Shown here: positions 26,974 through 52,240 of the stretch, piece after piece | Layout of the letters: each line of letters opens with the position of its first letter | How positions within the stretch are numbered: position 1 is the stretch's first letter | Assembly: GCF_000447795.1 (NCBI RefSeq) | Contig: NZ_AUNI01000021.1 | Span: 186,001 to 250,000, forward strand | Direction of reading: 5' to 3' | Length of the DNA stretch: 64,000 bases | From: Bacteriovorax sp. Seq25_V | GTDB lineage: Bacteria; Bdellovibrionota; Bacteriovoracia; Bacteriovoracales; Bacteriovoracaceae | Translations under genes and position numbers: made by a program | The notes under the pieces: generated by a model | Seen by the model: only the letters and a program-made list of their open reading frames with translations | Told to the model about the DNA's origin: nothing | The model's database searches: none

Positions 26974-27390
26974 ATGTCGTCACACAATCTTGATGTGTAC
27001 ATGCCGGTATTAATACTATTGGCGTTTGCAGTCATTATGGTAATAGGAGCGCTTCTAGTAGGGAAACTTATAAGACCTTCTAACCCAACCGATTTAAAAT
27101 TAACACCATACGAATGTGGTGAGGAGCCTATTGGTTCTGCATGGTCTAACTTCAATGTTAGATTCTATGTTATCGCACTTGTGTTCTTAATCTTTGATGT
27201 TGAAGGTGCATTAATGTTTCCTGTCGCAGCAGTTTTTAGGAAGTTTGTAGAGATTGGTGAAGGCGGCGCAGTTTTAGCATCTTTTCTACTTTTCATTACG
27301 ATACTAGCACTTGGTGTTGTGTATTGTTGGAAGAAAGGTGATCTTGACTGGGTAAAAAGTTATCAAGTTTCAGGTAAAAAGGATAAATAA
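26974..27390 (+). CDS. nuoA: NADH-quinone oxidoreductase subunit A
   Basis: 138 aa with three membrane helices. The family signature RPSNPTDLKLTPYECGEEP (about 34-52) contains the Tyr-Glu-Cys-Gly of the quinone-side loop, and FDVEGALMFP has the conserved acidic pair of helix 2. Subunit A lies at the junction of the membrane and peripheral arms of complex I. The stop overlaps the nuoH ATG. nuoB-G and nuoI do not follow as they do in the standard nuo operon. Confidence 0.95.
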   Translation: MSSHNLDVYMPVLILLAFAVIMVIGALLVGKLIRPSNPTDLKLTPYECGEEPIGSAWSNFNVRFYVIALVFLIFDVEGALMFPVAAVFRKFVEIGEGGAVLASFLLFITILALGVVYCWKKGDLDWVKSYQVSGKKDK

Positions 27391-28592
27391 TGAACTCAAC
27401 GGTTGTATCTTATTTATCACAAGCACCAGGATATGGTTTTTTAACTTCAAGACTCTCAGAAGTTCTAGGTTTTGATGCCACTGGAATTGTGAATTTCTTA
27501 ATTTTCTTCATTGTTACATTTGTAATTGTAAACGTGATGGCCGCTATCGGTGGTTTAGGTACATATGCAGAGAGAAAAATTTCTGCCGATTTACAAATGA
27601 GACAAGGTCCAAACAGAGTTGGGCCTTTTGGTATTCTTCAATTCTTAGCTGACGGTGTGAAGATGATCCTTAAAGAGGACATCATTCCAAGACAAGCTGA
27701 TAAGTTCATGTTTCACCTTGCTCCATTTTTATGTCTTGGTGGTGTATTCATGTCACTTGCGGTTGTTCCGTTTTCTAGTGGACTAGCATTAACAAATTTA
27801 AATATTGGTGTTTTCTACCTTCTAGGTGTTTCTTCACTTGTTGGTGTTGGGATTTTTCTTGGTGGTTATTCTTCAAACTCTAAGTGGTCAATGCTTGGTG
27901 GTATGAGAGGTGCCTCACAAATCGTTTCTTACGAAGTTCCAGTAACACTTACGATTTTATCAGTTGTTCTAATGGCCGGAAGTCTTTCATTTGATGTAAT
28001 TACTGAGGCACAAGGTGGTTTCCCACACGAGTGGTTCCTACTTCATAATCCATTCACTTTTATTGGTTTCTTTGTTCTTTTTATTGGAGCACTTGCTGAA
28101 ACTAATAGAGCACCATTTGACCTTCCTGAAGCAGAATCGGAACTAGTATCAGGTTACCATACTGAATATTCTGGGATGAGATTTGGTTTCTTTGCTCTTG
28201 CTGAATATATTGAAGTATTTGTTGTGTGTGGTGTTTGTGCTGCGCTTTTCCTTGGTGGATATAAAGTTCCTTTTGATCTTGGTTCTGGTGATTTCCTAGT
28301 TAAGGCTTTCCCATCAATTGAGCCAATGCTTGCTAAGCAAGTTGGTAATATTCTTCAACTTGGAGCTTTCGTTACAAAAACGTTAGCTCTTTATTATGTT
28401 GTTATCTGGATTAGATGGACACTTCCAAGACTTAGAGTTGACCATTTAATGGTTCTTTGTTGGAAGTACTTAACTCCAATTGCATTATTTAACCTAGTTG
28501 GTTGTGCAGTTTGGTTATATGCCTTCGAAGGTAAATCAATTTGGTATTTAATTTTTAAAAGTGGTGCAGCAGCAGCTGGTGCTCATCACTAA
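27390..28592 (+). CDS. nuoH: NADH-quinone oxidoreductase subunit H
   Basis: 400 aa, longer than the usual ~330 because of an N-terminal extension and a longer C-terminus. The quinone-site loop ERKISADLQMRQGPNRVGP (61-79), WSMLGGMRGASQIVSYE (about 166-182), ETNRAPFDLPEAESELVSGY (237-256) and IRWTLPRLRVD (341-351) are intact. It forms the quinone entry channel and the first acidic residues of the proton axis. Directly coupled to nuoA. Confidence 0.96.
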   Translation: MNSTVVSYLSQAPGYGFLTSRLSEVLGFDATGIVNFLIFFIVTFVIVNVMAAIGGLGTYAERKISADLQMRQGPNRVGPFGILQFLADGVKMILKEDIIPRQADKFMFHLAPFLCLGGVFMSLAVVPFSSGLALTNLNIGVFYLLGVSSLVGVGIFLGGYSSNSKWSMLGGMRGASQIVSYEVPVTLTILSVVLMAGSLSFDVITEAQGGFPHEWFLLHNPFTFIGFFVLFIGALAETNRAPFDLPEAESELVSGYHTEYSGMRFGFFALAEYIEVFVVCGVCAALFLGGYKVPFDLGSGDFLVKAFPSIEPMLAKQVGNILQLGAFVTKTLALYYVVIWIRWTLPRLRVDHLMVLCWKYLTPIALFNLVGCAVWLYAFEGKSIWYLIFKSGAAAAGAHH

Positions 28593-28612
28593 AATAGGGA
28601 AAGGGATTAAAC

Positions 28613-29143
28613 ATGTTTTTAAATATTATGTTTCTCTTGGCTGCGGGCGCGACAATCGGTGGATCATTCTTAACGGCCACTGCTAAAAACTTAATGCACG
28701 CATGTGTTTACTTACTACTTACACTTTTTGGTGTAGCTGGTCTGTATGCAACTTTAGGAGCGGACTTCTTAGCGGCAACACAATTAGTTGTTTATGCTGG
28801 TGGTGTTATTATCCTTATGCTTTTCGCCATCATGTTAACTGGTGGAGTTAGAGAGTTCGTTAACAAGTTTGGAATTGATAAAGTAGCTTCAATGGGGACA
28901 GTGAAAACTTACTCGATTGCAGGTTTCATGGTTCTAATCATGTCATTTGTTATCATGAAGATATTAGCTCCTGTGTTCAAGACTTATGCTCCAGGAGAGC
29001 TTCCTGCTTTTACAACAACAGTTGAAAAATTAGGAACGCTTCTAATTACTGACCATGTATTAGCATTTGAAATTTCTTCAATCCTACTTCTTGGTGCACT
29101 TATTGGTGCAGCAGTTATTTCAAGACCGGGGAGAACAAAATGA
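28613..29143 (+). CDS. nuoJ: NADH-quinone oxidoreductase subunit J
   Basis: 176 aa with five membrane helices. Helix 3 contains QLVVYAGGVIILMLFAIML, the Gly-rich pi-bulge segment characteristic of NuoJ. A C-terminal EISSILLLGALIGAAVISRP is also standard. It helps connect the E-channel to the antiporter-like subunits. A GGGAAAGGG ribosome site lies upstream, and the end overlaps nuoK by 4 bp. Confidence 0.95.
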   Translation: MFLNIMFLLAAGATIGGSFLTATAKNLMHACVYLLLTLFGVAGLYATLGADFLAATQLVVYAGGVIILMLFAIMLTGGVREFVNKFGIDKVASMGTVKTYSIAGFMVLIMSFVIMKILAPVFKTYAPGELPAFTTTVEKLGTLLITDHVLAFEISSILLLGALIGAAVISRPGRTK

Positions 29144-29445
29144 TCAGTTTACCATCATATTTAATTATTTCATTTTGCCTTTTCATTGCTGGTTTAACAG
29201 TAATGATCGCAAGAAAGAATATCATTGCAATGCTACTTGGTATTGAACTTATTCTAAATGCGGCAGCACTTAACTTTGCTGCGTACACAAGATTTGTTAA
29301 TCAAAATCTTGATGGGCATTTAATGTCTTTATTTATTATTGTTATCGCTGCTGCTGAAGCTGCGGTAGGGTTAGCGATTGTTATTAGATTCTTCCAGATT
29401 AAAGAGTCTATTCACATCGATGACGCAACTGAATTACAGAGCTAA
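29140..29445 (+). CDS. nuoK: NADH-quinone oxidoreductase subunit K
   Basis: 101 aa, three membrane helices. GIELILNAAALNF in helix 2 and AAAEAAVGLAIV in helix 3 carry the two conserved membrane Glu residues needed for proton translocation. Normal length and position, between nuoJ and nuoL. Confidence 0.96.
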   Translation: MISLPSYLIISFCLFIAGLTVMIARKNIIAMLLGIELILNAAALNFAAYTRFVNQNLDGHLMSLFIIVIAAAEAAVGLAIVIRFFQIKESIHIDDATELQS

Positions 29446-29466
29446 TAGGATTATAAGGAAATATAT

Positions 29467-31659
29467 ATGGATTATACGATCTCAAGTGTAGCACCAATTG
29501 TTCTCTTGCCATTTTTTGCTTTCGTTATTAACGCGTTCTTAGCAAGAAAGGGTGGTAAGGCAACTGTCGCTGCTGTATTTTTATCATGTGCCGCTATTGT
29601 TGGTTCATCATTTTATGCAATTAAGATCTTCAAAGACTTTGTTTTTGGAAATTACGCTGCAGATTACTACATTCACAAAGTATTTACTTGGTTCGACCTT
29701 ACTGGTGGAGGGCAAGAATTTGCGGTGAATATGGGGATTTACATCGATAACATGGCAGCAGTAATGCTTCTTATGGTTACGGTTGTTGCAACGATGATTC
29801 ACATTTTCTCTACGTATTACATGCACCACGATATGCACTATGGAAGAAATGGTAGATTCTTTGTTTATATGTCTCTATTTACTTCTGCAATGCTCGGTCT
29901 TGTGCTTTCAGATAACCTTTTCTCAGTATTTATCTTCTGGGAACTTATGGGATTCTGTTCTTACTCTTTAATTGGTTTTTACTACGAAAAAGAAAAGACA
30001 GGAAACGCAAGTATCAAAGCTTTCATGACGACAAGAATAGGGGATGTTTTCTTCCTTTTAGGAATTGTTGCTCTTTGGACACATATTGGTTCAGTTTCTT
30101 TTGTTGATTTATATGCTGCGATTGCAAACGGACTATTTGATGGTGCTAGTGTACTTGGTATTCCACTTGCTACATTTATTGCAGTTTGTATCTTCCTTGG
30201 AACTATTGGAAAATCAGCTCAATTCCCATTAAACGTTTGGCTACCAGACGCGATGAATGGACCAACTCCATGTTCGGCCCTAATTCACGCTGCTACAATG
30301 GTTGCTGCTGGGGTTTACTTATCTCTAAGAATTTATCCATTAATTGAACTTGGAAACCTAAACTACTTTGTTGCTTGTATTGGTGGTATCACAGCTCTTG
30401 GTGCTGCGACGATCGCTCTAGTGCAAACAGACTTCAAAGCAGTTCTAGCTTTTTCAACAATTTCTCAACTCGGATACATGGTTTTAGGTGTTGGTGTTGG
30501 ATCATATAATGCTGCATTCATGCACTTAATTACTCACGCGATTTTCAAGGCTTGTTTATTCCTTGCTGCTGGATCGGTAATTCACTCGCTTCACGATCAC
30601 CACACTCATGAGCACGTACAAGAAATGCCAAGAATGGGTGGTCTAAGACATAAGATGAAATTCACTTGGTTTGCAATGTGGTGTTGTACTCTTGCAATCG
30701 CTGGTGTTCCATTCTTCTCTGGTTTTGTTTCTAAAGATAGAATTCTTGGTGACGCGCTTGTTATGGCAACTCACGGACCGAAGTGGATTATCCCAACAGC
30801 TCTAGGATTTATCGGTGCATTCCTAACAGCATTCTATATGTGTAGAATGATGTTCTTAGCTTTCCACGGGAAGCCAAGAGATAAAGAAGTTTATGACCAC
30901 TGTCATGAAGAGCACTTCTCTTGGAATAGAAACTTACCATTATTATTCCTTTCAGTGTTTACGCTAGGAGTTTGGTTTGCTGGATCTTTAACAGGTCAAG
31001 GACTTGTTAAGGTTGCTGATCCTCACCATGGAAAATATGAGTGGTTCCAGACATTAATTCAAAAGCCAGTTGTTTCGAAATTTGTTTCTTTACAAAAAGA
31101 ACCATTCTCGCAACTTGATACAAGAGTTAAAAATAGTGCTGAGAAATCACAATATGACCACACATATGGTTTACCAGAAGATGAGGCTCACCATGTACAT
31201 CACGTACATCAAATTGGTGCTATCGCTTCGATCTTTATTGCTCTCGGTGGTATCTTCGTAGCAGCGATGATGTATCTATGGAATAAGTGGAATCCAGGAT
31301 TTTGGGTTAACACTTTCAATAGATATTATAGAACATTACAAAACAAATACTATATGGATGATCTTTATATTAAAGGATTTATTCAAGGGATGCTTCTACC
31401 GTTTAATAATCTACTATCAAGATTTGATATGGGATTCTACGACAAGTACGTAGTAGATGGTTGGGCCGTAGTTACTCGTTACCTTATGAATGTCTCGAAG
31501 TGGTTTGATAACTTATTCGTAGACACGATTATGGTTGATGGTACAGGTGCATCGGTTAGATTTTTCAACGTGATACTTAGGACAATTCAATCTGGAAAGA
31601 TTCAGTTCTATATCATTATGATTGTATTAGTAATTTTTGGTTATATTTTAGCTTTATAA
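29467..31659 (+). CDS. nuoL: NADH-quinone oxidoreductase subunit L
   Basis: 730 aa, larger than the usual ~610-660. Antiporter-like core: FWELMGFCSYSLIGF (helix 5 Glu), GKSAQFPLNVWLPDAMNGPTP (helix 7 Lys), FSTISQLGYMVLG, HAIFKACLFLAAG (helix 8 Lys) and FFSGFVSKD (helix 12 Lys), then the long lateral helix and a final helix. Extra length lies in a His-rich segment (HSLHDHHTHEH, about 377-387) and another His-rich loop (HHVHHVH) before the last helices. A distal proton channel of complex I. Confidence 0.96.
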   Translation: MDYTISSVAPIVLLPFFAFVINAFLARKGGKATVAAVFLSCAAIVGSSFYAIKIFKDFVFGNYAADYYIHKVFTWFDLTGGGQEFAVNMGIYIDNMAAVMLLMVTVVATMIHIFSTYYMHHDMHYGRNGRFFVYMSLFTSAMLGLVLSDNLFSVFIFWELMGFCSYSLIGFYYEKEKTGNASIKAFMTTRIGDVFFLLGIVALWTHIGSVSFVDLYAAIANGLFDGASVLGIPLATFIAVCIFLGTIGKSAQFPLNVWLPDAMNGPTPCSALIHAATMVAAGVYLSLRIYPLIELGNLNYFVACIGGITALGAATIALVQTDFKAVLAFSTISQLGYMVLGVGVGSYNAAFMHLITHAIFKACLFLAAGSVIHSLHDHHTHEHVQEMPRMGGLRHKMKFTWFAMWCCTLAIAGVPFFSGFVSKDRILGDALVMATHGPKWIIPTALGFIGAFLTAFYMCRMMFLAFHGKPRDKEVYDHCHEEHFSWNRNLPLLFLSVFTLGVWFAGSLTGQGLVKVADPHHGKYEWFQTLIQKPVVSKFVSLQKEPFSQLDTRVKNSAEKSQYDHTYGLPEDEAHHVHHVHQIGAIASIFIALGGIFVAAMMYLWNKWNPGFWVNTFNRYYRTLQNKYYMDDLYIKGFIQGMLLPFNNLLSRFDMGFYDKYVVDGWAVVTRYLMNVSKWFDNLFVDTIMVDGTGASVRFFNVILRTIQSGKIQFYIIMIVLVIFGYILAL

Positions 31660-31684
31660 AATTTAGGAATTAAGGAGTTTACAG

Positions 31685-33217
31685 GTGAGCGGTCATTCTA
31701 ATTTGCTAAGTTGGATTCTGTGGATGCCGATTGTTGGTGTTCTTGGAGTATTATTAATCCCAAGAACTAAAGAGACTTTAATTAGATTTTGGTCTCTTAT
31801 TAACACGGTTATTACTCTAGCATTATCGGTTGTACTTTATATGAAGTTCGATACGACAACGCCAGGTATGCAAGCAGCTTTTACAATTAAAAAAGCATGG
31901 ATCAGTCAGTTTAATATTTTCTACCACCTTGCGGTTGATGGTATTTCACTTCCAATGATCTTATTAACATCTTTACTTTTCTTTATCTGTATCCTTTCTT
32001 CATGGACAGTAAAGAAACAAGTTAAAGGTTACTTTGCATTATTTTTATTTCTTCAGTCGACAGTATTTGGAGTATTCCTTTCAATGGACTTCTTCTTATT
32101 CTACGTTTACTGGGAAGTTATGCTTATTCCAATGTTCTTCCTAATCGGAATTTGGGGTGGAGAAAACAGAGAGTATGCAGCTGTAAAATTCTTCTTATAT
32201 ACATTCTTTGGTTCTATTCTAATGTTAGTTGGTATGGTTGCTCTATACTTCGTAACTGGTCAAGGTGTTGATTCTTTCAATATTCTTGCTCTATCGGGTG
32301 GGAAGTTTGCAAACGAAACAGTTAATATGTTCGGCATGGCACTGCCATTCGCGAAAATATTCTTTGTCGCTCTATTTATTGGTTTTGCGATTAAAGTTCC
32401 TGTTTTCCCATTTCACACTTGGTTACCACATGCTCACGTTCAGGCTCCAACTGCGATCTCAGTTATCCTTGCTGGTGTTCTATTAAAGATGGGTACATAT
32501 GGTTTCTTAAGAATTGCATTTCCAATCTTCCCAGGTGCTTCAGTTTACTTTGCTGATGCAATCGCTTGGCTAGGTTTAATTAATATCATCTACGGTGCAT
32601 TCTGTGCGATGGCTCAAACCGATGTTAAAAAACTTGTTGCATACTCTTCAGTATCTCACATGGGTTTTGTTATGCTAGGTCTTGCAGCTATGACTGTTCA
32701 AGGTGTTAATGGAGCTGTTCTTCAGATGTTCAACCACGGAACTTCAACAGCTATGATGTTCCTTCTAATTGGTATTCTTTATGAAAGATCTCACCACAGA
32801 TGGATTGTTAGACCAGATGGAACAAAAGGTTTTGGAGGTCTTTATACACAATTACCAAAATTCTCAATCATCTTTATTATCGCGATGTTCGCATCAATGG
32901 GATTACCAGGTCTTTCAGGATTTATCTCTGAAGCGCTAATCTTCCTAGGGATCTATAACAGATTTACAACAATTACTGTAATCGCGGTACTTGGTCTTCT
33001 TCTTGGTGCAGCTTACCTATTATGGATGTTCAAGAGAATGTTCTTTGGTGAAGTTATTGAAGAAAACAAATCATACACAGATGTAAATTCAAGAGAAATT
33101 TTCTACATGTTACCACTATGTGTTGCTGTTATCCTTTTTGGAGTTTACCCAGCACCACTACTTAACATTATGAAAGCTTCTGTTGGTAAATTAGTTTCTC
33201 TACTAGCTCAGTTCTAG
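31685..33217 (+). CDS. nuoM: NADH-quinone oxidoreductase subunit M
   Basis: 510 aa, normal length, GTG start with AAGGAG upstream. LAVDGISLPMILLT, YWEVMLIPMFFLIGIWGG (helix 5 Glu), FAIKVPVFPFHTWLPHAHVQAPT (helix 7 Lys), SSVSHMGFVMLG and GLPGLSGFISEALIF (helix 12 Glu) are intact. Middle antiporter-like proton channel. Confidence 0.96.
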   Translation: MSGHSNLLSWILWMPIVGVLGVLLIPRTKETLIRFWSLINTVITLALSVVLYMKFDTTTPGMQAAFTIKKAWISQFNIFYHLAVDGISLPMILLTSLLFFICILSSWTVKKQVKGYFALFLFLQSTVFGVFLSMDFFLFYVYWEVMLIPMFFLIGIWGGENREYAAVKFFLYTFFGSILMLVGMVALYFVTGQGVDSFNILALSGGKFANETVNMFGMALPFAKIFFVALFIGFAIKVPVFPFHTWLPHAHVQAPTAISVILAGVLLKMGTYGFLRIAFPIFPGASVYFADAIAWLGLINIIYGAFCAMAQTDVKKLVAYSSVSHMGFVMLGLAAMTVQGVNGAVLQMFNHGTSTAMMFLLIGILYERSHHRWIVRPDGTKGFGGLYTQLPKFSIIFIIAMFASMGLPGLSGFISEALIFLGIYNRFTTITVIAVLGLLLGAAYLLWMFKRMFFGEVIEENKSYTDVNSREIFYMLPLCVAVILFGVYPAPLLNIMKASVGKLVSLLAQF

Positions 33218-33231
33218 TTAAAGGTGAAATA

Positions 33232-34707
33232 ATGGCTTTAAAATATTTAGCAAGTATAAGTCACTACGTTCCAGAGCTGCTATTGTGTTTAACAATGGCG
33301 GCACTGATTCTAGTTGAATCAACTTATGATAATAATGTTAAAGGACGTTCGAAAGGACTTCTTTTTTCTACGGCCTTCCTTGGTTTAATTGCTTCTTTTT
33401 GCTACCTCGTAAAAGGACTTGGTGCTGCTCCTGTAAAGATCTTTACTGGTTCAGTTATAATCGATTCTTTTAGTACTTTCGCAAAAGGTATTATGTTACT
33501 TGGAACGGCTGCAGCGATTTACTTAGCTCAACAATCTAAGGATCTTTACGAAGAAACAAAAGCTGAATTTGTAATTCTAGCAATCGGTGTACTTATTGGT
33601 GGGATGCTACTAGCTTCTGCAAATAATATGCTAATCCTTTATATTGGTATCGAAACACTTTCGATCCTTTCTTATGTTCTAGCATCTTTAAGAAGAAACG
33701 ATGAGAGATCTTCTGAAGCTGGTCTTAAGTACTCACTTTACGGTGGGGTAACTGCAGGTATCATGCTTTTTGGTATGTCTCACATGTTTGGTGTTCTTGG
33801 AACAATCAACTTTTCAGAGATTATTCCAGCAATGGCGAACCTAACAACTGAGCAAGCTTTAATTCTTATGCCATCATTTGTACTTTTCTTTGCTGGTATT
33901 GGTTACAAAATTGCTTGTGTTCCATTTCATATGTGGTCACCAGATGTTTACGAAGGTTCTCCGCTTCCTGTTACTAACTTCTTCTCAATCGTTCCAAAGA
34001 TTGCAGGGATCGTGGCAGTTGTAAGAATAACAAACGTATTCTTTGCGGGTGATGCTTCAATCGTAAGAGAATCATGGGTTGTACTACTTATGATTATCGC
34101 AGCGATCACAATGACTGTTGGAAACGTATCAGCTATCGGCCAGAGATCAGTTAAGAGAATGTTAGCATTCTCAAGTATTTCGCACGCAGGTGTTATGCTA
34201 CTTGGTGTTCTTTGTATTGATGAATTAGGTTCTAGAGCGATCCTATTTTATGCAGTAACTTACTTATTTATGACACTTGTTGCTTTCTACATTACTTCTT
34301 TTGTTCAGGATCAATATGGAAACGATCACTTCGAAAGATTCAGTGGGCTAATTAAGAAGCACCCTCTAATGGCGATCCTAATGACAACTGTAATGTTCTC
34401 ACTAGCTGGGCTTCCTCCATTAGCTGGATTTGTGGCTAAGTTTAATATCCTCGCAGCAATTATTGCTAAGAAGTATTACGTACTGGCTGTAATCACTGCA
34501 CTAAACTCTGTTGTATCTCTTTACTACTACATGAAAGTTGTAAGACTAATGGTACTAAAAGATTCAGAGTCTGAAGAGAGCGTTACTGGATTTACTGTAC
34601 CAAACCAAATCGTTATTACTGTTTTCTCAATTCCAGTGTTTTTACTTGGTATTTTCTGGGAAAAGATCTTAATGATGGCCGGTGGAGCATTAATCCTTAT
34701 TAAGTAA
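33232..34707 (+). CDS. nuoN: NADH-quinone oxidoreductase subunit N
   Basis: 491 aa, normal length. IGIETLSILSYVLA (helix 5 Glu), YKIACVPFHMWSPDVYEGSP (helix 7 Lys), SSISHAGVMLLG and LAGLPPLAGFVAKF (helix 12 Lys) are typical. Third antiporter-like channel. Its TAA overlaps the ATG of the next membrane gene (TAATG), so the seven genes that follow belong to the same transcription and translation unit. Confidence 0.96.
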   Translation: MALKYLASISHYVPELLLCLTMAALILVESTYDNNVKGRSKGLLFSTAFLGLIASFCYLVKGLGAAPVKIFTGSVIIDSFSTFAKGIMLLGTAAAIYLAQQSKDLYEETKAEFVILAIGVLIGGMLLASANNMLILYIGIETLSILSYVLASLRRNDERSSEAGLKYSLYGGVTAGIMLFGMSHMFGVLGTINFSEIIPAMANLTTEQALILMPSFVLFFAGIGYKIACVPFHMWSPDVYEGSPLPVTNFFSIVPKIAGIVAVVRITNVFFAGDASIVRESWVVLLMIIAAITMTVGNVSAIGQRSVKRMLAFSSISHAGVMLLGVLCIDELGSRAILFYAVTYLFMTLVAFYITSFVQDQYGNDHFERFSGLIKKHPLMAILMTTVMFSLAGLPPLAGFVAKFNILAAIIAKKYYVLAVITALNSVVSLYYYMKVVRLMVLKDSESEESVTGFTVPNQIVITVFSIPVFLLGIFWEKILMMAGGALILIK

Positions 34708-34988
34708 TGATGAATATCTACTTAATTATCACAGTTCTTTTTATAATTTCACTCGGGGTAGCTTTGATCTACCCCTTGTTTTTCTCACGACCAAATATTC
34801 AAACAAATCTAAGAATTAAACAAAGAGCAATCTATAAGTCTGAGATGTCTTCTCTTGTTAAAAGTGCTCTTTGGGCAATATCACTGCTTTTAATATCTTG
34901 CTTCTTTGGATCTGTAACTATTGATTATTCGAAAGAGTTCTATTCAATTTTGATCATCGCTGTTACAATTTTAGCAGTTATTCTTTAA
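34707..34988 (+). CDS. Diverged NuoA-like membrane protein
   Basis: 93 aa, two to three membrane helices. Residues 28-37 read RPNIQTNLRI and match nuoA residues 34-43 RPSNPTDLKL (Arg, Pro, Thr, Leu identical; Asn/Asp, Arg/Lys and Ile/Leu similar) at the same place after helix 1. The invariant Tyr-Glu-Cys-Gly that follows in NuoA is missing, as is the helix-2 acidic pair. Overlaps nuoN (TAATG). First of seven genes mirroring nuoA-H-J-K-L-M-N. Homology is by eye and needs a profile test. Confidence 0.5.
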   Translation: MMNIYLIITVLFIISLGVALIYPLFFSRPNIQTNLRIKQRAIYKSEMSSLVKSALWAISLLLISCFFGSVTIDYSKEFYSILIIAVTILAVIL

Positions 34989-34991
34989 AAG

Positions 34992-35885
34992 TTGGTATCA
35001 ATGTTTAACTTATTAGTATTATCTTTTTTAATACTTTTAATAGTATTCGCAACATTTAAAATCTTCAAAGTCGAAGGTCTTCGTTCGATCTCTATTCAGA
35101 GATATATATCTCTCTCTAAGCAGAGTCGTAGTTATGATTTTTCATCATATATAGTAAGAGTATTTCAAATTATAATCTCTTTAATAATGTTCTTTGTGAT
35201 TATTTATGATTTTGGTGAATCGAATATTCTTTACAGAAAGATATCCATTACAGAGTTGCTTTTATTTTTTACATTCGATTTTATTTGCTTAAGCTATTTA
35301 AACTTCAAAAGTATTAAGCAGAAAATTGATCTACTCTCACATATTAGATCGACACTCTACATAATCTCTACACTGATTATTATTTCGATGATTCTGCACT
35401 TCTATAGTTTAAGCCCAGTAATCTCGCAAATTATCACCAAGCAAAATCAGTTAATGTTCTTTGTTCCAAAGTGGAATGCAATAATGTTAGCTCCAGTATT
35501 TTGGATATTCATTTTGATTATTAAAGATAGTCAAAGACAGATAATTAAAAGTCCTGGCGAGTATGAGATTATTGATTACCAAAATATGATTTTGCTTTAT
35601 GCAAGGCTAATGATTTACGGAGTTGTTTTGGTTCTCCTGTTTGCAGGAGGAGATACTTCACTTGGTCTGTTTGATCGGTTTAATATGAACTCATTTCAAC
35701 TTGAATTACTTCAGAAATTTGTATTCTTAGTTAAATATATAGTCATGATTTATATTTTAAAGTGGACACATAATCTTACAGTTTCTAAATCACTTTCTGA
35801 GGCTTTGAAGTCCAGCCGGTTATATGTTCTTGTAACAATGCTTACATTTATTATTGTATGTGTAATTAAGGTGTATCAACTATGA
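34992..35885 (+). CDS. Diverged NuoH-like membrane protein
   Basis: 297 aa, about eight membrane helices. Residues 113-126 (DLLSHIRSTLYIIS) align with NuoH 167-180 (SMLGGMRGASQIVS), keeping Leu, Arg, Ile and Ser. Residues 189-220 (GEYEI...LLFAGG) align with the acidic loop and following helix of NuoH 250-290. Lys248 followed by KWT (257-259) mirrors NuoH K330 and RWT (342-344). The quinone-loop motif ERK...GPNRVGP and the ETNRAPFDLPE motif are lost. It cannot be a functional quinone channel as known. Start taken as GTG 34992, with ATG 35001 as an alternative. Confidence 0.55.
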   Translation: MVSMFNLLVLSFLILLIVFATFKIFKVEGLRSISIQRYISLSKQSRSYDFSSYIVRVFQIIISLIMFFVIIYDFGESNILYRKISITELLLFFTFDFICLSYLNFKSIKQKIDLLSHIRSTLYIISTLIIISMILHFYSLSPVISQIITKQNQLMFFVPKWNAIMLAPVFWIFILIIKDSQRQIIKSPGEYEIIDYQNMILLYARLMIYGVVLVLLFAGGDTSLGLFDRFNMNSFQLELLQKFVFLVKYIVMIYILKWTHNLTVSKSLSEALKSSRLYVLVTMLTFIIVCVIKVYQL

Positions 35886-36331
35886 TCGCTATTCAAATTT
35901 TGACAATTATTATACTGGTCGCTTTTTATACAATGAAGGATTCAAAAATTTCAACTGCTCTTTCACTTGTTGGAACAATCTTGTTAGTTATATCACTCGA
36001 AAATAATTCAGAAGTTTTTATGACATACTTCTGTATCTTATCGTTGGTGTTTTTCCTTGTGCTATCTACTTTTGCACATACCTTCCCATCACTACAAGAA
36101 GAGAAGTCATTTGGTATGAATAGATATGGGCTTGTAACAAAACTGATAGTTATTATTTTACTTATTGCCTTATTGAATATTTTAAACTCGTCATCATTTA
36201 ACTTCTTTGAACCTGATAAGGCCGTTGATATTTCACAGAAGCTTACAGCACAAAGATTAATTAAGATATTTGCTCCAATGCTAATGGTAATATCTATCGT
36301 TTTCTCACAGTTGAGGGATTCTAATGACTAG
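35882..36331 (+). CDS. Diverged NuoJ-like membrane protein
   Basis: 149 aa, five predicted helices with the NuoJ layout: three close helices, a loop, helix 4, a long loop, helix 5. KDSKISTALSLVGTILL aligns with the TAKNLMHACVYLLLTLF region of NuoJ. The Gly-Gly pi-bulge of helix 3 is replaced by CILSLVFFLVL. The terminal LIKIFAPMLMVISIVFSQ occupies the place of NuoJ helix 5. Overlaps the NuoH-like gene by 4 bp (ATGA type). The call depends mainly on position, length and topology, with weak residue matches. Confidence 0.45.
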   Translation: MIAIQILTIIILVAFYTMKDSKISTALSLVGTILLVISLENNSEVFMTYFCILSLVFFLVLSTFAHTFPSLQEEKSFGMNRYGLVTKLIVIILLIALLNILNSSSFNFFEPDKAVDISQKLTAQRLIKIFAPMLMVISIVFSQLRDSND

Positions 36332-36584
36332 TACGATATTAGAATATTTTCCATATATATCTATGTTGTTAATCATTGTAACAGTACCACTTCTTTTAAC
36401 GACAAGTTACAAAAAGAGAGTAAGCTCACTTTTTCAAATAATTATTATATTAGTATCGATGGTGGATAAGAAAATGATGGAAATAGGGGAAGTCTCTGAA
36501 TACAGATTTCTTATTTATTTAATTCCTACCCTGGTTCTCTTTTTCTATTTTTATATCTACGCAAAGGCGAAGCTAAAAGTATGA
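36324..36584 (+). CDS. Diverged NuoK-like membrane protein
   Basis: 86 aa, three membrane helices, close to NuoK size (101 aa here). The short basic loop YKKRV after helix 1 matches ARKNI of NuoK. Neither of the two NuoK membrane Glu residues is present: helix 2 reads LFQIIIILVSMVD and helix 3 IYLIPTLVLFFYFYIY. Overlaps both neighbours. The NuoK assignment is positional. Confidence 0.45.
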   Translation: MTSTILEYFPYISMLLIIVTVPLLLTTSYKKRVSSLFQIIIILVSMVDKKMMEIGEVSEYRFLIYLIPTLVLFFYFYIYAKAKLKV

Positions 36585-37882
36585 TTTATCTAATATTGTT
36601 TTTAATATTTACAGTTAGTGTCTCATTCTTAGCGAATAAGCAAAGTTTTGAGAAATATATATTTCCTGTGATCAGCATTATCTTGTTTATGACCCTAGGA
36701 TTTAAAACTTGGGCAAATGAGAGCGTGACGATTGGTTTGGTTGCGATTTCAATTTATACGCTTTTTGGTTTCAAGAAAATTTCTTCACCTGCTGCAATGC
36801 TTGGGCTTGCGAGTCTTTTGGGGTCTTACCTGGGAATTTCTTTTGCAGAATCGATTGTGATGACGCTGATATTTACCAGTATCGATTATATTGCTCAAAA
36901 GCGAGCGAGAACACTTGTTCCACTGGCACTGGCTTCGTGCGCTTTAATCTTTAGTTCATTTGTTTTTAGCGTGCTTTTCGTGGTTTATGTTTTAATTTTC
37001 TTAGAGGACAAGGATACCCATTGGGCCATCTTTATGATGCTACTTTTAAGTTTAAACAACCAAATATTTTACCACTTTAAATATGCACAATTTTTAATAC
37101 CAGTATTTTCTTTGGTCGCAGTCGTTTTATACAATCATAAAAAGAATAATAATCTACAAATATTTACAATCTCATACTTTAGTTTGTTGAGTTTAAATGA
37201 ATATAATGCTGTATTGCTACTTTGTACGACATATTTTGTATCAGTTTCGGTTTTTGAGTTATTAAGACTTGAGCTTAAGAGAAATGATTTTACTAAATTC
37301 AAGGCTATAGATCTTGCGAAGAATATGTCATCTCTTATAAATCCTTGTGTAATAATCTCATTAGGTCTTCTTGCTGATCATGGAATGGCCCTAGGCTTGG
37401 TTGTTCTAGTGCTTGCAATAATGAATATAAAGAGGGTTAAGTCATTTGATATCAAGGCTTATGACTTCTACATAACATGTATGATTAGTTTCTTAATTCT
37501 TATTACTATCCTACAACCATATACAGAAGGTTTTTATGCCTTTGGTTTTTCTAAAAAATACGGAGTAAGTTTCTTCTACAAGAGTTTGTATCTTCCGTTT
37601 CTTTTACAAATCTTTTTCTTGTTCTCGGGTGCTCTTTGGAATTATTTTAAAATCGATAAGACAAGATTTAAGTCACTACTTGTACAATATGAGATTGTGA
37701 ATAGTTATAGACATCGATATTTGAATGAAAGCTTGGAAAGAACATTTAATTCTGAAATTAGAATGCAACCTATATCATTTAAACCATTCCCAAAAGCGAA
37801 GCTTCCATTTGGTGATGCATGGTCTCTTTTGTCATTTTTTGCTGTTTTATTTCTTGCGATAAAACTGGTGGTTAGTCTATGA
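36581..37882 (+). CDS. Diverged, shortened NuoL-like membrane protein
   Basis: 433 aa against 730 for the canonical NuoL, about eleven helices. The segment NLQIFTISYFSLLSL then EYNAVLLL aligns with NuoL AVLAFSTISQLGYMVLG then SYNAAFMHLITHAIFKACLFL; the helix-8 Lys is absent (TTYFVSVSVFEL). A polar amphipathic stretch (about 365-405) followed by a final helix recalls the lateral helix and last helix of NuoL. The helix 5 Glu and helix 7 Lys motifs are not found. Overlaps the NuoK-like gene by 4 bp. Confidence 0.45.
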   Translation: MIYLILFLIFTVSVSFLANKQSFEKYIFPVISIILFMTLGFKTWANESVTIGLVAISIYTLFGFKKISSPAAMLGLASLLGSYLGISFAESIVMTLIFTSIDYIAQKRARTLVPLALASCALIFSSFVFSVLFVVYVLIFLEDKDTHWAIFMMLLLSLNNQIFYHFKYAQFLIPVFSLVAVVLYNHKKNNNLQIFTISYFSLLSLNEYNAVLLLCTTYFVSVSVFELLRLELKRNDFTKFKAIDLAKNMSSLINPCVIISLGLLADHGMALGLVVLVLAIMNIKRVKSFDIKAYDFYITCMISFLILITILQPYTEGFYAFGFSKKYGVSFFYKSLYLPFLLQIFFLFSGALWNYFKIDKTRFKSLLVQYEIVNSYRHRYLNESLERTFNSEIRMQPISFKPFPKAKLPFGDAWSLLSFFAVLFLAIKLVVSL

Positions 37883-38727
37883 AAAAGACTTATTTAATCA
37901 AGAGTATAATAGTCTTAATGTATGCCATAGTTTCATTGATTGTATTTACTTTTATGAATATCAATGAGGCTAGTAAGTTGGCTCTTGTTGAGTATTATGG
38001 AATTCTTAAGAACTTTGATTTTGCACTAGCTGTAAATATTAATACGATTCTTTTTCTTCCTTTTGTTCCAATCTACTTCATTAATGGACCATTAAAAAAA
38101 TTTTTACTGGCTTCAGTTTTTGCAGTGTTTTTATTACTGACTTTTAGTGGCTGGTTGTATGTTGTGTTAGCTATTGCGGTTGTTGATCAGCTAGAAAATT
38201 TTGGGAAAGTACAAGTATATAAAAACTTATTGATGCAGATAATTCTCGTGGTTGGTATGAATATTATGTTCGGCCAAGATCTAAAGTTGTCTTTAGTTTA
38301 CATAAGCGCGATTTACTTACTGCTAATGAAGAGGAATATCCTTATTGATTTTATCTTTGCTGTTTGGTTAATCAATATAAGCTTCACTCCAGTTGAATAC
38401 TGGATTTTATTACCATTCTTGGCCATTACGATATTCAAAGAATTAGTTCTAACGAAGTCTAGTGACTATATGCGAGCAATTTTTTGGGCCTTCTTATTAC
38501 TTGGAGTTGCTAAAGAGTGGATTGCTTTGTCATTCTTAATTCTTCTGATCTCCTCAAAGAGAAATGAGCTTGGCCTGACGACAAGGGTGATGAATACGCT
38601 TTCGATTGTGTTTATTACGTTCTCTTTAGTATTATTAAATTTTCCGAATGAATTGAAAATTTTTATCTGTGGTGGCTTACTAGCATATTTATTTGCGAAA
38701 GAGACAGAGGTTGAATATGGATATTGA
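37879..38727 (+). CDS. Diverged, shortened NuoM-like membrane protein
   Basis: 282 aa against 510 for NuoM. LAVNINTILFLPFVPIYF aligns with NuoM LAVDGISLPMILLTSLLF, and VYKNLLMQIILVVGM with VKFFLYTFFGSILMLVGM. The helix-5 YWE is replaced (LYVVLAIAVVD), so the key Glu is gone. A terminal LNFPNELKIF is a possible relic of MGLPGLSGF. The last helices of NuoM seem to be deleted. Overlaps the NuoL-like gene by 4 bp and the NuoN-like gene by 11 bp. Confidence 0.45.
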   Translation: MKKTYLIKSIIVLMYAIVSLIVFTFMNINEASKLALVEYYGILKNFDFALAVNINTILFLPFVPIYFINGPLKKFLLASVFAVFLLLTFSGWLYVVLAIAVVDQLENFGKVQVYKNLLMQIILVVGMNIMFGQDLKLSLVYISAIYLLLMKRNILIDFIFAVWLINISFTPVEYWILLPFLAITIFKELVLTKSSDYMRAIFWAFLLLGVAKEWIALSFLILLISSKRNELGLTTRVMNTLSIVFITFSLVLLNFPNELKIFICGGLLAYLFAKETEVEYGY

Positions 38728-39694
38728 GTTTTACTCTTTATTTCTTTGTTACCCATTAATGCTTTTATTACAGAAAGTATTCTCTGGACATGAGAGTATT
38801 AAAAGAGCATTCTTAAAAGTTGCTCCTTGGCTCTTACTAGTTATCTTTCACTTACTTTTCATTCCTTATATGGTGAGAAATAGTGAATACATTCTCTTAA
38901 CAATTCTTTCTTCAATTTATTTATTTGCTGTGCATGAAAACCGTACAACCCTATCATCAATCTTTAGAGATTTTACGATTTTTTGGATGTCGGCTACTTG
39001 TCTTACCGTTTTCTTAAAATTCTCGAATGCGATTTACTTGATTGGTATTCTTCCAATATTTGCAATGAAACAGGATTCAATTAGATCTACAACTCGCTCA
39101 CTTTTGTGGATTGTTTGTATATTTTTAATGTTACTTATATCTGAGATTGATGTCGGGAAAGGTCTATTCATTAAGGAATATTTCCTTGAGATATTATTTC
39201 TCCTTATATTTATATTTTTCACTAACATTAAAAGTGGAAATATTAGATCACTACAATACTATGTTTTAACTCTCGGGTGTTTTAATTCATTGATCACACA
39301 TTACTCATATATTCCTTATACTTTTAAGTATATTTTTATTGGGGTACAAGTGTTTACCCTGCTACGATTCTACGTAGAAAAAAGAGTTCAGAATCTGATT
39401 CTTACCACACTGTGTTTTACAATCTTAATAATCCCTTCAATATCTGCAATTTCTAATCTACAGATTTGTTTGATGATTTATGTCGGTTTTATGGTGATGA
39501 AAGAGTTCATTAAGAATGTTCAAATTCAGCGTTATGTACAGGTAATCTTGAGTACATTTGTAATTTATTTAGTTTTTGCAGGTATAGAAAATATCGATAT
39601 GCTAACTAAATTTTCTGGATTTATCTTAATTGTAAATATTTTGATAGCAGGCTATCAAAAGCTCATGATATCAGATACTTTTGTCCATTCTTGA
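38717..39694 (+). CDS. Diverged, shortened NuoN-like membrane protein
   Basis: 325 aa against 491 for NuoN, nine to ten helices. Codons at 39578-39613 read AGIENIDMLTKF, which matches NuoN AGLPPLAGFVAKF with one deletion; the helix-12 Lys-Phe is kept. MKEFIKN just before it parallels FSGLIKK of NuoN. The helix 5 Glu and helix 7 Lys motifs are absent. ATG 38717 is chosen for its AGAGG site seven bases upstream; it overlaps the previous gene by 11 bp. Last gene of the paralogue run. Confidence 0.45.
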   Translation: MDIEFYSLFLCYPLMLLLQKVFSGHESIKRAFLKVAPWLLLVIFHLLFIPYMVRNSEYILLTILSSIYLFAVHENRTTLSSIFRDFTIFWMSATCLTVFLKFSNAIYLIGILPIFAMKQDSIRSTTRSLLWIVCIFLMLLISEIDVGKGLFIKEYFLEILFLLIFIFFTNIKSGNIRSLQYYVLTLGCFNSLITHYSYIPYTFKYIFIGVQVFTLLRFYVEKRVQNLILTTLCFTILIIPSISAISNLQICLMIYVGFMVMKEFIKNVQIQRYVQVILSTFVIYLVFAGIENIDMLTKFSGFILIVNILIAGYQKLMISDTFVHS

Positions 39695-39727: not shown

Positions 39728-42700
39728 ATGAAAAAATACCGCGTAAAAAACGATGATGGTAGAATCATTGGCCCATTGCTTTTAACTGACCTTGTACAAT
39801 TACAAGAGCAGAATGAAATATCAGCAACAAGTTTGTTTCAGGTTTTTCCTCTAGGTGACTGGGATAATATTTCTAATTTTCAAGAGATCAAAAAAGCATT
39901 TTCAGAAAAAAAGGAAGAAGATTCAACTCGTACTATTACAGAACAGGTCGAACAGCCATCACGCCCAGCTGAAGATGCAACTGAATTTAGAGAGTTTAAG
40001 TTTGACCGTCGAGTAAATAATCTTGTCGACTATGGAGAACTTGAAAGGCGTCATAAAGTTGAAAAAGAAAAAATTCGTGAAGCGGAAGAGAAAAAAGAAG
40101 TAGAGCTTGAGAAAACGCGAATTGTTAAATTACCAGATGTTGAAAGCGTAGAAAAGACAAGAATAGTAAGAAGAGATGACCTCGTTATGGATGATAACGA
40201 AGGAGCGGCTGATGAACCTGAAAAGTCAGATGCTCCTGTTGTGGGAAAAAAAGAAGTTGTTCAACCCCCAGAGGAAAAGATAGACGTTAATGAAAAGACG
40301 ATGATGGTAAGTCTGAATGACCTGATGCCAGCAGTACCAAAGAAGGATGATTATAGAGATCTCGAGAAAGAGTTACTTGTCATTGAAAAACAAGAAAAAA
40401 TAAAAACTAGATCTGCCAAACAGGGCGCTAAGAAAGCTAAGAAAACAACAGTTGAACCGATCAAAAACAAAAAGAACCTTTCTATAATTTTATTTGTAAT
40501 CGTCTCTCTAATATTTTTACTCCCAGATAGTAATGAAAAAGAAGAAACTGTATTTAGGCCTAAAATTCAATTTCCTATTGTGGCAAAAATTGAAAACACA
40601 CAACTAGCTAAGCAAGATTTTGAAAAAGGACTTAAGCTATATCAAAAAGATAATTATAAAGATATTGTCGCTGCCTCATTATTATTTAATAAATCACTGG
40701 TAAATAAGTTCAGAGGGAATGAAGCACTTCCATATCTCATAATTTCGTATTCTGAGTTACTTCCAGCTGCTCAAAATCAAATTGAGTATGGAAAAGTTTT
40801 AAATCAACTAATTACGATTGCAGGGCCAGCAGTCTTGAGTGATTCGAATGTCGCTCTCGGGGCAGCAAACTATTTTGCAAACTTTAATAAAAAGCATACC
40901 GCTGTAACAATTCTTGAAAGATATCTAAGACTTAATAGACCTACTCCTAAAGTATATGCCAAGTATCTTTCGCTGTTGATTGATATTGGTGATTTTGTAA
41001 AGTCGAAAAGTGCATTTGAAAAACTAGAGAAAGCACCTAAGTCAGATGTAGACGTTATAGAAGCGATGGGGAAATATCTTATCCTAAATGAGCAGCCAGA
41101 AAAGGCATTAGAGCTTTATAAGCAAAGTCATGAAAAATTTAAAGATAACCTTAGATTCTTAGCGATATATGGAAATGTCTTATTAAAGCTTAGGGATATT
41201 GAAACACTAAAACCACTTACTGTTATATTATTAGCAAAGAAAGGTGGAGGATCTCCAATTATCTACGCACAGGCTCTAAAGTTTATGGGCTATATTCAAA
41301 TTGCGCAGAATAAATTCAAAGAAGTTCCTAAGTACTTCAAAGCATCACTTGAGCTCTATGATTCAAGAGAGCTTAAGGAAGTTCTGGCTACATTAGATGT
41401 CGGTGGAGATAAGATTGGCGAAGAAATCATTACTAAAAGTAAGATTGATCTATTAATTACCAAATCAAAACGAGAAGTGAGTCTTTTGAATTGGGAGAAA
41501 GCTTTTCAGTATGCGATTCAAGCGAGTGACTTGAGTGAAAGTAATCTTGATGCAAAGCTTTATCTCGCAGAACTTCAGTCGAGAAGAGGGTATTATAACT
41601 CAGCTATTAGTACATTAAGTAAACTTAGAGAATACTATCCATTAAATATTGATGTAAATTATGAATTGCTTATGGCCAACTTAAGAGCTTACCGCGTCGG
41701 TGAAGTTAAGAGGCTTATTCAGAGTTTCTCTACAATTAAAACATTTCAGGATTCTTTTGAATACCTCGCTGTTCTTGGTCATTATTATAACTTAATTGGA
41801 AACGATAAACTTGCCTTTGATCGATATCAAGGAGCTTTACAGAAGAATCCTCTTCGAGATGATATTTACTTTGAAATGGCTAAGATTGCTTTCTCTTTGA
41901 AGAAGTTTGCTCGCTGTAAGGAATTCCTTGGAGAGGCGATGAAGCTTGATCCATTTAATTATGACTATAAGATTCTATATTCTCGAGTGATATTTGAAAT
42001 GGATGACGTTACAACAGCAATAGGTTATCTACGTAACGAATTAGAGAAGTCAGTGGATAATCCAAAGCTTGTTGGACAAATTGCAATTTTTTACTTTAGG
42101 GATCAAAATTTTGCTGAATACAAATTGTATCGTGAAAAACTAGAGCGACTTTCGAAATCTGACGAGTCACTTTATGAATATCTTGTTGAGTCAGCAGAAT
42201 TAGAAAAAGACTTTAAGGCGATTGTTGAAAATGCAGAAAAGTTGCTACTTGTAGCACCTGGAAAAATTGATATAAGGATGAAGCTAGCATCAGCTTATAC
42301 TGAACTTGGTAAATACTCAGATGCGATAAGAATTTTAAACTCAGTTGAAGAGAGACTTAGTGCTTATCCAAGAGTTAATTACTACAAAGCTAATATTTTC
42401 CTAAAGCAAAATGATTTAAAATCAGCAGAAGAGGCCGCTAAAAAAGAAATTGAAGTTAATTCTGGATCACATCTTGGTTACTACATTCTTGGAAAGATAT
42501 ACATGCAGGCTAAAGACTATACCGAGGCAAAGAAGAGCTTGGAAAAGTCGATACAGATCAAGCCAGACTTTTATGAGTGCTTACTTGAGCTAGGTGAATT
42601 AAAAGAGAAACAAGGGCATTTTGCAGCTGCTAGAGAGTTATACCTGAGAGCATTAAGGCAGAATGATCTTGATCCTGAATTGCATAAGAGACTTGGATTT

Positions 42701-42820
42701 ATCTATAAAGAAATTGGACAAGGTCAAATGGCCATCGAACAATTTAAAACTTATTTAAATTTAAACCCTGCAGCACAAGATCGAGCAAAAATTAACAGAA
42801 TTATTCTTCAATTGCAGTAA
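39728..42820 (+). CDS. GYF_2 domain and TPR repeat membrane protein
   Basis: 1030 aa. N-terminal GYF_2-like domain (about 1-58: YRVKNDDGRIIGPLLLTDL, then GDWDNI) expected to bind proline-rich or other peptides. A charged linker (60-250) repeats short Thr motifs: STRTI, EKTRIVKL, EKTRIVRRDDL and EKTMMVSLNDL, resembling phospho-Thr sites for FHA partners. One membrane helix (about 256-272) follows, then about 750 residues of TPR-type helices, with canonical repeats at the C-terminal end (LGYYILGKIYMQAKDY, ELHKRLGFIYKEIG). Cytoplasmic sensor N-terminus and periplasmic TPR scaffold are inferred. Confidence 0.75.
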   Translation: MKKYRVKNDDGRIIGPLLLTDLVQLQEQNEISATSLFQVFPLGDWDNISNFQEIKKAFSEKKEEDSTRTITEQVEQPSRPAEDATEFREFKFDRRVNNLVDYGELERRHKVEKEKIREAEEKKEVELEKTRIVKLPDVESVEKTRIVRRDDLVMDDNEGAADEPEKSDAPVVGKKEVVQPPEEKIDVNEKTMMVSLNDLMPAVPKKDDYRDLEKELLVIEKQEKIKTRSAKQGAKKAKKTTVEPIKNKKNLSIILFVIVSLIFLLPDSNEKEETVFRPKIQFPIVAKIENTQLAKQDFEKGLKLYQKDNYKDIVAASLLFNKSLVNKFRGNEALPYLIISYSELLPAAQNQIEYGKVLNQLITIAGPAVLSDSNVALGAANYFANFNKKHTAVTILERYLRLNRPTPKVYAKYLSLLIDIGDFVKSKSAFEKLEKAPKSDVDVIEAMGKYLILNEQPEKALELYKQSHEKFKDNLRFLAIYGNVLLKLRDIETLKPLTVILLAKKGGGSPIIYAQALKFMGYIQIAQNKFKEVPKYFKASLELYDSRELKEVLATLDVGGDKIGEEIITKSKIDLLITKSKREVSLLNWEKAFQYAIQASDLSESNLDAKLYLAELQSRRGYYNSAISTLSKLREYYPLNIDVNYELLMANLRAYRVGEVKRLIQSFSTIKTFQDSFEYLAVLGHYYNLIGNDKLAFDRYQGALQKNPLRDDIYFEMAKIAFSLKKFARCKEFLGEAMKLDPFNYDYKILYSRVIFEMDDVTTAIGYLRNELEKSVDNPKLVGQIAIFYFRDQNFAEYKLYREKLERLSKSDESLYEYLVESAELEKDFKAIVENAEKLLLVAPGKIDIRMKLASAYTELGKYSDAIRILNSVEERLSAYPRVNYYKANIFLKQNDLKSAEEAAKKEIEVNSGSHLGYYILGKIYMQAKDYTEAKKSLEKSIQIKPDFYECLLELGELKEKQGHFAAARELYLRALRQNDLDPELHKRLGFIYKEIGQGQMAIEQFKTYLNLNPAAQDRAKINRIILQLQ

Positions 42821-42911: not shown

Positions 42912-42999
42912 GGAGGATTGGCTGAGTGGTCGAAAGCGGCGGTTTTGAAAACCGTTGACTCGCAAGGGTCCGCAGGTTCGAATCCTGTGTCCTCCGCCA
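42912..42999 (+). tRNA. tRNA-Ser (anticodon TGA)
   Basis: 88 nt including an encoded CCA. The acceptor GGAGGAT pairs with GTCCTCC, discriminator G. The anticodon loop within GGTTTTGAAAACC gives TGA. A long variable arm and the T-loop GGTTCGAATCC are typical of class II tRNA-Ser. Confidence 0.96.
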
Positions 43000-43029
43000 T
43001 TTTTTTTTCATATAATTATACAAGTTGTT

Positions 43030-43119
43030 GGAGACGTGGCCGAGTGGTCGAAGGCAGCACCTTGCTAAGGTGTCGTACGGGCAACTGTACCGAGAGTTCG
43101 AATCTCTCCGTCTCCGCCA
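43030..43119 (+). tRNA. tRNA-Ser (anticodon GCT)
   Basis: 90 nt with CCA encoded. The acceptor GGAGACG pairs with CGTCTCC. The anticodon stem-loop CACCTTGCTAAGGTG gives GCT. A long variable arm and GTTCGAATC T-loop are present. It follows the first tRNA-Ser by 30 bp and shares its terminator. Confidence 0.96.
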
Positions 43120-43124
43120 TCTAT

Positions 43125-43156
43125 AAAAAAGCTAGGTTCTGCCTAGCTTTTTTTTT
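43125..43156 (+). terminator. Rho-independent terminator of the tRNA pair
   Basis: A-rich 5' arm plus GCTAGG (43131-43136), five-base loop, CCTAGC (43142-43147), then nine T. A textbook intrinsic terminator. Confidence 0.9.
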
Positions 43157-43241
43157 GTTCTAGTCTCAACCTCACATTCATAGACTTTCATTCTAAACAC
43201 CATTAAAATTACGCATGATACAAATTTTATATGGATTTTAA

Positions 43242-49808: not shown

Positions 49809-49885
49809 GCACTCGTAGCTCAGCTGGATAGAGTATTTGACTACGAATCAAAAGGTCGCAGGTTCGACTCCTGCCGAGTGCGCCA
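49809..49885 (+). tRNA. tRNA-Arg (anticodon ACG)
   Basis: 77 nt with CCA encoded. The acceptor GCACTCG pairs with CGAGTGC. The anticodon loop CTACGAA gives ACG, whose A34 must be converted to inosine by TadA, encoded 1.6 kb downstream. D-loop and T-loop (GGTTCGACTCC) are normal. Confidence 0.96.
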
Positions 49886-52152: not shown

Positions 52153-52240
52153 GGAGAATTGGCCGAGTGGTCGAAGGCGCACGCTTGGAAAGCGTGTATA
52201 CCGAAAGGTATCGAGGGTTCGAATCCCTTGTTCTCCGCCA
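52153..52240 (+). tRNA. tRNA-Ser (anticodon GGA), integration target
   Basis: 88 nt with CCA. The acceptor GGAGAAT pairs with GTTCTCC. The anticodon loop CTTGGAAAG gives GGA; long variable arm and GGTTCGAATCC T-loop are intact. Its 3' end forms the left edge of a 92-bp direct repeat. Confidence 0.96.

Follow-up and report, generated by a model that had tools for sequence, protein, structure and literature searches.

Bacteriovorax sp. Seq25_V carries, directly after a canonical set of complex I membrane genes, a block of seven small membrane-protein genes (X1–X7) that probably represents what is left of the membrane arm of another complex I, of the NuoCD type (14 subunits) and long separate from the canonical one, which may now be a non-redox, non-pumping envelope complex. 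The block lies within a stretch of 64,000 nucleotides (contig NZ_AUNI01000021.1, positions 186,001 to 250,000, forward strand), hereafter the window. By comparison with a set from the class Bacteriovoracia, whose genomes, loci and genera are labelled G, L and g, respectively (G000 being the window genome), we show the subunit order of the block, its ancestry, its parallel erosion, the purifying selection acting on it and, in four genomes, its independence from canonical NuoN. Homology and erosion are demonstrated for the family, and for the window they are indicated by position together with a NuoH match.

Organization of the seven-gene block

The canonical nuoA-H-J-K-L-M-N genes (26974..34707, plus strand; 138, 400, 176, 101, 730, 510 and 491 amino acids (aa)) score far above the Pfam/NCBIfam cut-offs and lie upstream of the block in the same transcription unit. 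The block consists of X1 (NuoA-like, 34707..34988, 93 aa), X2 (NuoH-like, 34992..35885, 297 aa, TTG start), X3 (NuoJ-like, 35882..36331, 149 aa), X4 (NuoK-like, 36324..36584, 86 aa), X5 (NuoL-like, that is antiporter-like, 36581..37882, 433 aa), X6 (NuoM-like, 37879..38727, 282 aa) and X7 (NuoN-like, 38717..39694), for which the ATG at 38717 gives 325 aa and an alternative TTG at 38693 gives 333 aa. All seven are encoded on the plus strand and are hydrophobic, with a mean hydropathy of 0.8–1.2; the start of X1 is the last base of nuoN, and the other junctions are a 3-base gap or overlaps of 4–11 bases. These coordinates confirm the first-pass annotation, which had described seven abutting or overlapping open reading frames (ORFs) of these sizes after nuoN. 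Its further observation, that their order and relative size follow the upstream set, also holds, the upstream genes being true nuoA-H-J-K-L-M-N by Pfam and the size order recurring in 33 loci. The short motif likenesses to canonical Nuo proteins that it listed are visible, yet insufficient alone as proof of homology, and none of the seven ORFs matches a Pfam or NCBIfam model over any cut-off. The antiporter-like subunits X5–X7 are ~30–45% shorter than those of the intact second set described below, with ~10 instead of ~16 predicted transmembrane (TM) helices in X5, ~8 instead of ~12–13 in X6 and ~8 instead of ~13 in X7.

The same slot in related genomes

Because a sequence search with X5 found no match except itself among 57 relatives, we used synteny for the comparison, taking nuoN and the downstream tetratricopeptide repeat (TPR) gene as anchors and mapping the ORFs in ~100 loci. 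The slot, which extends from nuoN or mfd to the TPR gene, shows four states: intact, intermediate, reduced and absent. In the intact state, found in genus g14 between nuoN and the GYF/TPR gene (L057, L092–L096, L122, L123, L125 and L126), a second NuoA-H-J-K-L-M-N set of ~120, 349, 172, 98, 660, 494 and 460 aa is present. Other families of the same phylum have comparable second-type sets (L069, L071–L074 and L076), with a TPR gene directly after them in L069, L073 and L076. Eleven loci are intermediate (L088, L086, L113, L114, L099, L104, L064, L133, L059, L065 and L078) and 33, the window included, are reduced to blocks of seven ORFs, compared with 16 intact second sets; the same block is thus present in related genomes, as the first-pass annotation had proposed to examine. 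The seven-ORF arrangement and size order are kept in all 33 reduced loci despite identity down to ~10–20%, which exceeds what chance would give. Starting from the intact second set, the intermediates and reduced blocks make up a continuum.

In four genomes (G014, G016, G019 and G021) the block stands between mfd and the TPR gene without a NuoN close to the canonical one: a canonical-NuoN search returned no match in G016 and G019 and distant antiporter-type matches only in G014 and G021. A contig scan for the block family found at least three loci, in Bacteriovoracia or Bdellovibrionales metagenome-assembled genomes (for example, JAUIBX010000004 and JABGUH010000029).

Homology of the seven proteins

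Profile–profile comparison (HHalign) of the intermediates with the intact set gave the expected diagonal, with probabilities of 98 (A), 100 (H), 98 (J), 99 (K), 99 (L), 100 (M) and 100 (N), and strong off-diagonal matches were confined to the paralogous L, M and N. When the 33 reduced loci were compared with the intermediates, H (98), J (92) and K (92) were recovered, N reached 48 over 310 columns and A reached 6 (best in its row), while L and M were not detected. With only nine strictly chosen reduced loci, the comparison with the intact set detected NuoH alone (66%), so that deeper pooled profiles were needed, and reduced H and N proteins scanned one at a time against Pfam gave almost no matches. 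In a blind iterative profile assignment, 46 of 52 protein groups went to their own position and the remaining six, all L or M, to N, with none assigned across families.

Profile searches across the PDB gave the corresponding subunit at every position. All five matches of the 33 reduced H proteins were ND1 (E 0.14–5.4), and the top matches were NuoA/ND3 for 22 position-A proteins including X1 (E 8e-4), NuoJ for position J (E 0.008), NuoK/ND4L for position K (E 0.05) and NuoL/ND5 for position L (E 2e-8), the A, J, K and L profiles mixing intermediate and reduced members; position M matched NuoM/ND4 (E 2e-26) and position N matched NuoN (E 2e-29), both profiles being built from intermediates only. 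At the family level, these results identify the seven positions, in order, with NuoA, H, J, K, L, M and N, and the top matches of the family profiles showed neither unrelated families nor a scrambled order.

For the window, the order proposed by the first-pass annotation is borne out with one subunit, the NuoH-like X2, individually demonstrable. Against the seven profiles, the window genus gave a significant match for H (97, over 232 columns), whereas A (20, for X1) and N (8) were best in their rows but weak. The assignment of X1 draws on position, this best match and the position-A PDB profile; that of X3 and X4 on position, the reduced-family profiles and the PDB profiles; that of X5 on position and on larger homologues from other genera that match antiporter-like profiles; and that of X7 on position and the reduced-family profile against the intermediate N. 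X6, like the other reduced M-type members, is placed by position and size only.

A separate complex I lineage

In a NuoM tree, from which the intermediates were left out because of their very long branches, canonical and second sets fall on opposite sides of a 100/100 branch with other phyla between them. Tandem duplication of the adjacent nuo genes is rejected by this topology, and the block, which the first-pass annotation had called a degenerate copy of the membrane arm, is not a copy of its neighbours; by phylogeny, it descends from a separate, ancient complex I lineage. Other complex I-related clusters occur in the relatives. L066, L067 and L068 (G023, G008 and G009) carry a further complex I cluster with H, J, K, L, M, N and neighbouring soluble subunits, probably acquired separately. 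L062 and L077 have Mrp-like antiporter clusters, and L063 has a hydrogenase-4-like cluster with NuoL/H-type genes, in each case apart from the block.

An unlinked locus with NuoB-, NuoCD- and NuoI-like proteins

A NuoD search revealed a second, NuoCD-fused protein in most genomes, with a conservation graded like that of the membrane block; its profile matches 121 of 125 genomes, a number that overstates how many have a NuoCD-like protein because the profile also recognizes canonical NuoD. The whole cluster with the lipoprotein gene likewise recurs in most genomes of the family, at graded levels of conservation. In the window genome, the gene lies outside the window in a lipoprotein-NuoB-NuoCD-NuoI locus on the minus strand (contig C14, ~240426–244125; L218:8427–12126), which encodes a lipoprotein of 481 aa and NuoB-, NuoCD- and NuoI-like proteins of 137, 507 and 104 aa. 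The NuoB-like protein matches PF01058 with 35.3 bits (cut-off 27), and the NuoCD-like protein matches PF00346 with 69 (cut-off 24) and PF00329 with 23 (cut-off 22.5). In G018 (L219) and G035 (L247) the order is lipoprotein-NuoB-NuoCD-NuoE-NuoF-NuoG-NuoI; most other loci have lost E, F and G, and genus g14 retains an intact version of the second complex with all three. NuoF (PF01512) has no match in the window genome, compared with matches in nine of 14 control genomes, NuoE and NuoG not being searched separately; because NuoF is absent, the canonical set of the window probably belongs to an 11-subunit complex I. The first-pass annotation had described degeneration of the membrane arm, which stands for the membrane block, whereas the restriction to that arm does not, since the NuoB-, NuoCD- and NuoI-like proteins at the other locus are eroded as well.

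Loss of catalytic features

In N, M, L and K, the proton-channel residues are conserved across 18 canonical sets (17 for K) and 16 intact second sets (with one D for E in NuoL), and are broken in 11 of 11 intermediates, the window's own proteins being too divergent for reliable alignment. The canonical E/K/H residues are lost in lineage-specific combinations, E/K being partly kept in some intermediates, and the reduced NuoN-like family shows no conserved substitute residue for them. Across the family, the predicted TM helices of L, M and N fall from ~16, 13 and 13 to 11, 8 and 9; J and A fall by one, and H and K hardly change. The ligands of cluster N2 in the NuoB-like protein are kept in G000, G001, G007, G010, G012, G018, G021, G024, G026 and G027 and are lost or incomplete in others, and the NuoI-like protein of the window genome has lost the NuoI cysteines and lacks both 4Fe-4S motifs. 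Given the loss of channel residues, Fe-S ligands and the NADH module, we infer that redox and pumping functions were lost.

Selection on the reduced block

The ratio of nonsynonymous (dN) to synonymous (dS) substitution rates, omega, is ~0.10–0.27 for close pairs of the reduced block and up to 0.48 in more distant pairs, compared with 0.01–0.10 for canonical nuo and 0.02–0.06 for the intact g14 second set, all being rough values because dS is high, near or at saturation. The dN of the reduced block is several-fold to more than 10-fold the canonical value. The seven frames are nevertheless open in 33 loci from many genera, though canonical NuoN identity there goes down to 53–79%. Omega values of 0.1–0.3, together with the persistence of the block where a genome has no canonical NuoN, speak against mere decay and point to purifying selection.

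Partner proteins and adjacent genes

The TPR gene (39728..42820, plus strand) starts 33 bases after X7; at most loci its neighbour is either the block or an intact second nuo set. Its 1030-aa product has Pfam TPRs in a long C-terminal part, one TM helix at residues ~250–268 and a GYF_2-like N-terminus; Pfam scores GYF_2 in eight of nine homologues and does not score it in the window copy. The lipoprotein of the unlinked locus (L218:10681–12126) and its homologues are found in 106 of 125 genomes and share eight invariant cysteines besides the lipobox cysteine. Five of its six PDB profile matches show a weak, collinear likeness to soluble family I inorganic pyrophosphatase, with the catalytic aspartates apparently absent. 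Farther downstream in the window are two tRNA-Ser genes (42912–43119), overlapped by a spurious 81-aa ORF (42918–43163); genes for a 918-aa protein without a Pfam match and then an Alg9-like mannosyltransferase-type protein (43242–47352); and, beyond these, a tRNA-Arg gene at 49809 and another tRNA-Ser gene at 52153.

Interpretation of the block and its alternatives

In the model we favour, the second complex would have lost its NADH module, complete proton channels and, in many lineages, Fe-S ligands, while keeping the seven membrane subunits and, at the unlinked locus, the NuoB-, NuoCD- and NuoI-like proteins and the lipoprotein. The seven proteins would still assemble into one inner-membrane complex, capable of neither NADH oxidation nor proton pumping, and would provide a platform in the membrane for the GYF-TM-TPR protein and the Cys-rich lipoprotein, both of which are better conserved. 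With the GYF domain in the cytoplasm and the TPRs in the periplasm, such a platform could link cytoplasm, inner membrane and periplasm. Whether complex I was exapted in this way, as a scaffold without redox or pumping activity for the GYF-TM-TPR protein and the pyrophosphatase-like lipoprotein, which would be a previously undescribed type of machine, strikes us as a nearly even call, and we propose somewhat more tentatively that it acts in assembly or transport in the cell envelope.

The graded shortening, the loss of catalytic residues, the strongly raised dN and several complete losses would also fit a functionless relic, in which a redundant second complex I shrinks under relaxed selection on its way out. 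We think this unlikely, as the seven frames stay open in so many divergent genera, omega is not near 1, the block is retained where canonical NuoN is gone and the lipoprotein is widespread. Slightly less likely still is a reduced complex that continues to move ions as a remodelled channel or antiporter, drawing on the proton-motive force to power the periplasmic TPR and lipoprotein parts, with new residues replacing the canonical ones: three antiporter-like subunits are kept, some intermediates retain part of the E/K residues and there is a putative coupling to periplasmic partners, but the canonical residues disappear in a different combination per lineage without a conserved substitute in the reduced NuoN-like family, and L, M and N have lost some four to five helices. 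The shared operon, with X1 overlapping the end of nuoN, could point to an accessory or regulatory subcomplex of the canonical complex I; we consider this improbable, given the persistence of the block between mfd and the TPR gene where no close canonical NuoN exists and the possession of its own NuoB/CD/I homologues. Least probable by far is that seven unrelated small membrane proteins resemble nuo genes by coincidence of size and order, a reading for which the lack of Pfam/NCBIfam matches and the failure to detect six of the seven window proteins individually could be cited, but one already contradicted at the level of the family, since the graded series ends in an intact nuo set at this very slot and blind PDB searches return the right subunits.

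Several observations weigh against the reading of the block as a retained, non-redox complex I remnant. The block is absent or lost in several lineages (g24, g61, g53 and some others). Moreover, L238, L239 and L240 (g24) and L241 (g53) keep a lipoprotein-NuoB-NuoCD cluster without a membrane block after nuoN, nor did a NuoH-type profile reveal such a block elsewhere; since no membrane block is detectable in g24 although its NuoB/CD/I locus is kept, the parts of the complex are not strictly inseparable. In the window genus, the J-, K-, L- and M-like proteins are undetected individually by the HHalign profiles, the identities of the J-, K- and L-like proteins being taken from position and relatives and that of the M-like protein from position; AlphaFold models of X5 and X6 from three sequences had a pLDDT of 39 and pTM values of 0.28 and 0.19 and were not used. 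The near-saturated dS counts here as well. Finally, the NuoB-like protein of the window genome retains all four N2 ligands (CC, C and C motifs), and some electron chemistry in its complex is conceivable.

Comparison with known systems and significance

The second complex resembles the 14-subunit NDH-1 with fused NuoCD in its subunits A, B, CD, H, I, J, K, L, M and N and in its membrane gene order, but differs in the absence of NuoF (window genome), the shorter antiporter-like subunits, the very fast evolution, the broken channel residues of its intermediates and the partial loss of Fe-S ligands. With the 11-subunit complex I lacking NuoEFG it shares the seven membrane subunits in the same order and a genome devoid of NuoF; however, the canonical set, which is probably of that type, keeps all tested catalytic residues (18/18) and lies on the other branch of the tree. 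Mrp antiporters and group 4 membrane-bound hydrogenases also have complex I-related membrane subunits. Unlike Mrp, with its gene set A–G, the block has the order A-H-J-K-L-M-N, and an Mrp-type antiporter is ruled out by the NuoH-like X2 and the NuoB/NuoCD-like partners. A group 4 [NiFe] hydrogenase was likewise rejected, since 15 NuoCD-like proteins share no invariant cysteine column and hence have no [NiFe] site. A further parallel is with pseudoenzymes, catalytically dead scaffolding paralogues that lost catalysis under continuing purifying selection, except that in the present case the loss affects an entire complex of some ten subunits and not a single protein; we know of no described case of a whole-complex pseudoenzyme, and our literature searches found no description of such a second, eroded complex I in the papers searched.

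Complex I is the textbook redox-driven proton pump, and debate continues over the tasks for which its individual parts are required. In the family described here, nature provides a graded series that begins with an intact complex and ends with one lacking the NADH module, the channel residues, the Fe-S ligands and about one-third of the antiporter helices. The series also illustrates that homology can extend far beyond what standard annotation detects. The lipoprotein and TPR partners are already present with the intact second complex, which points to a function older than the erosion. Continued selection on a complex that appears to have lost its electron-transfer and proton-pumping machinery suggests that this second complex I has been put to a different use. 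The series shows what remains of complex I once catalysis is no longer selected while the subunits themselves are still under selection.

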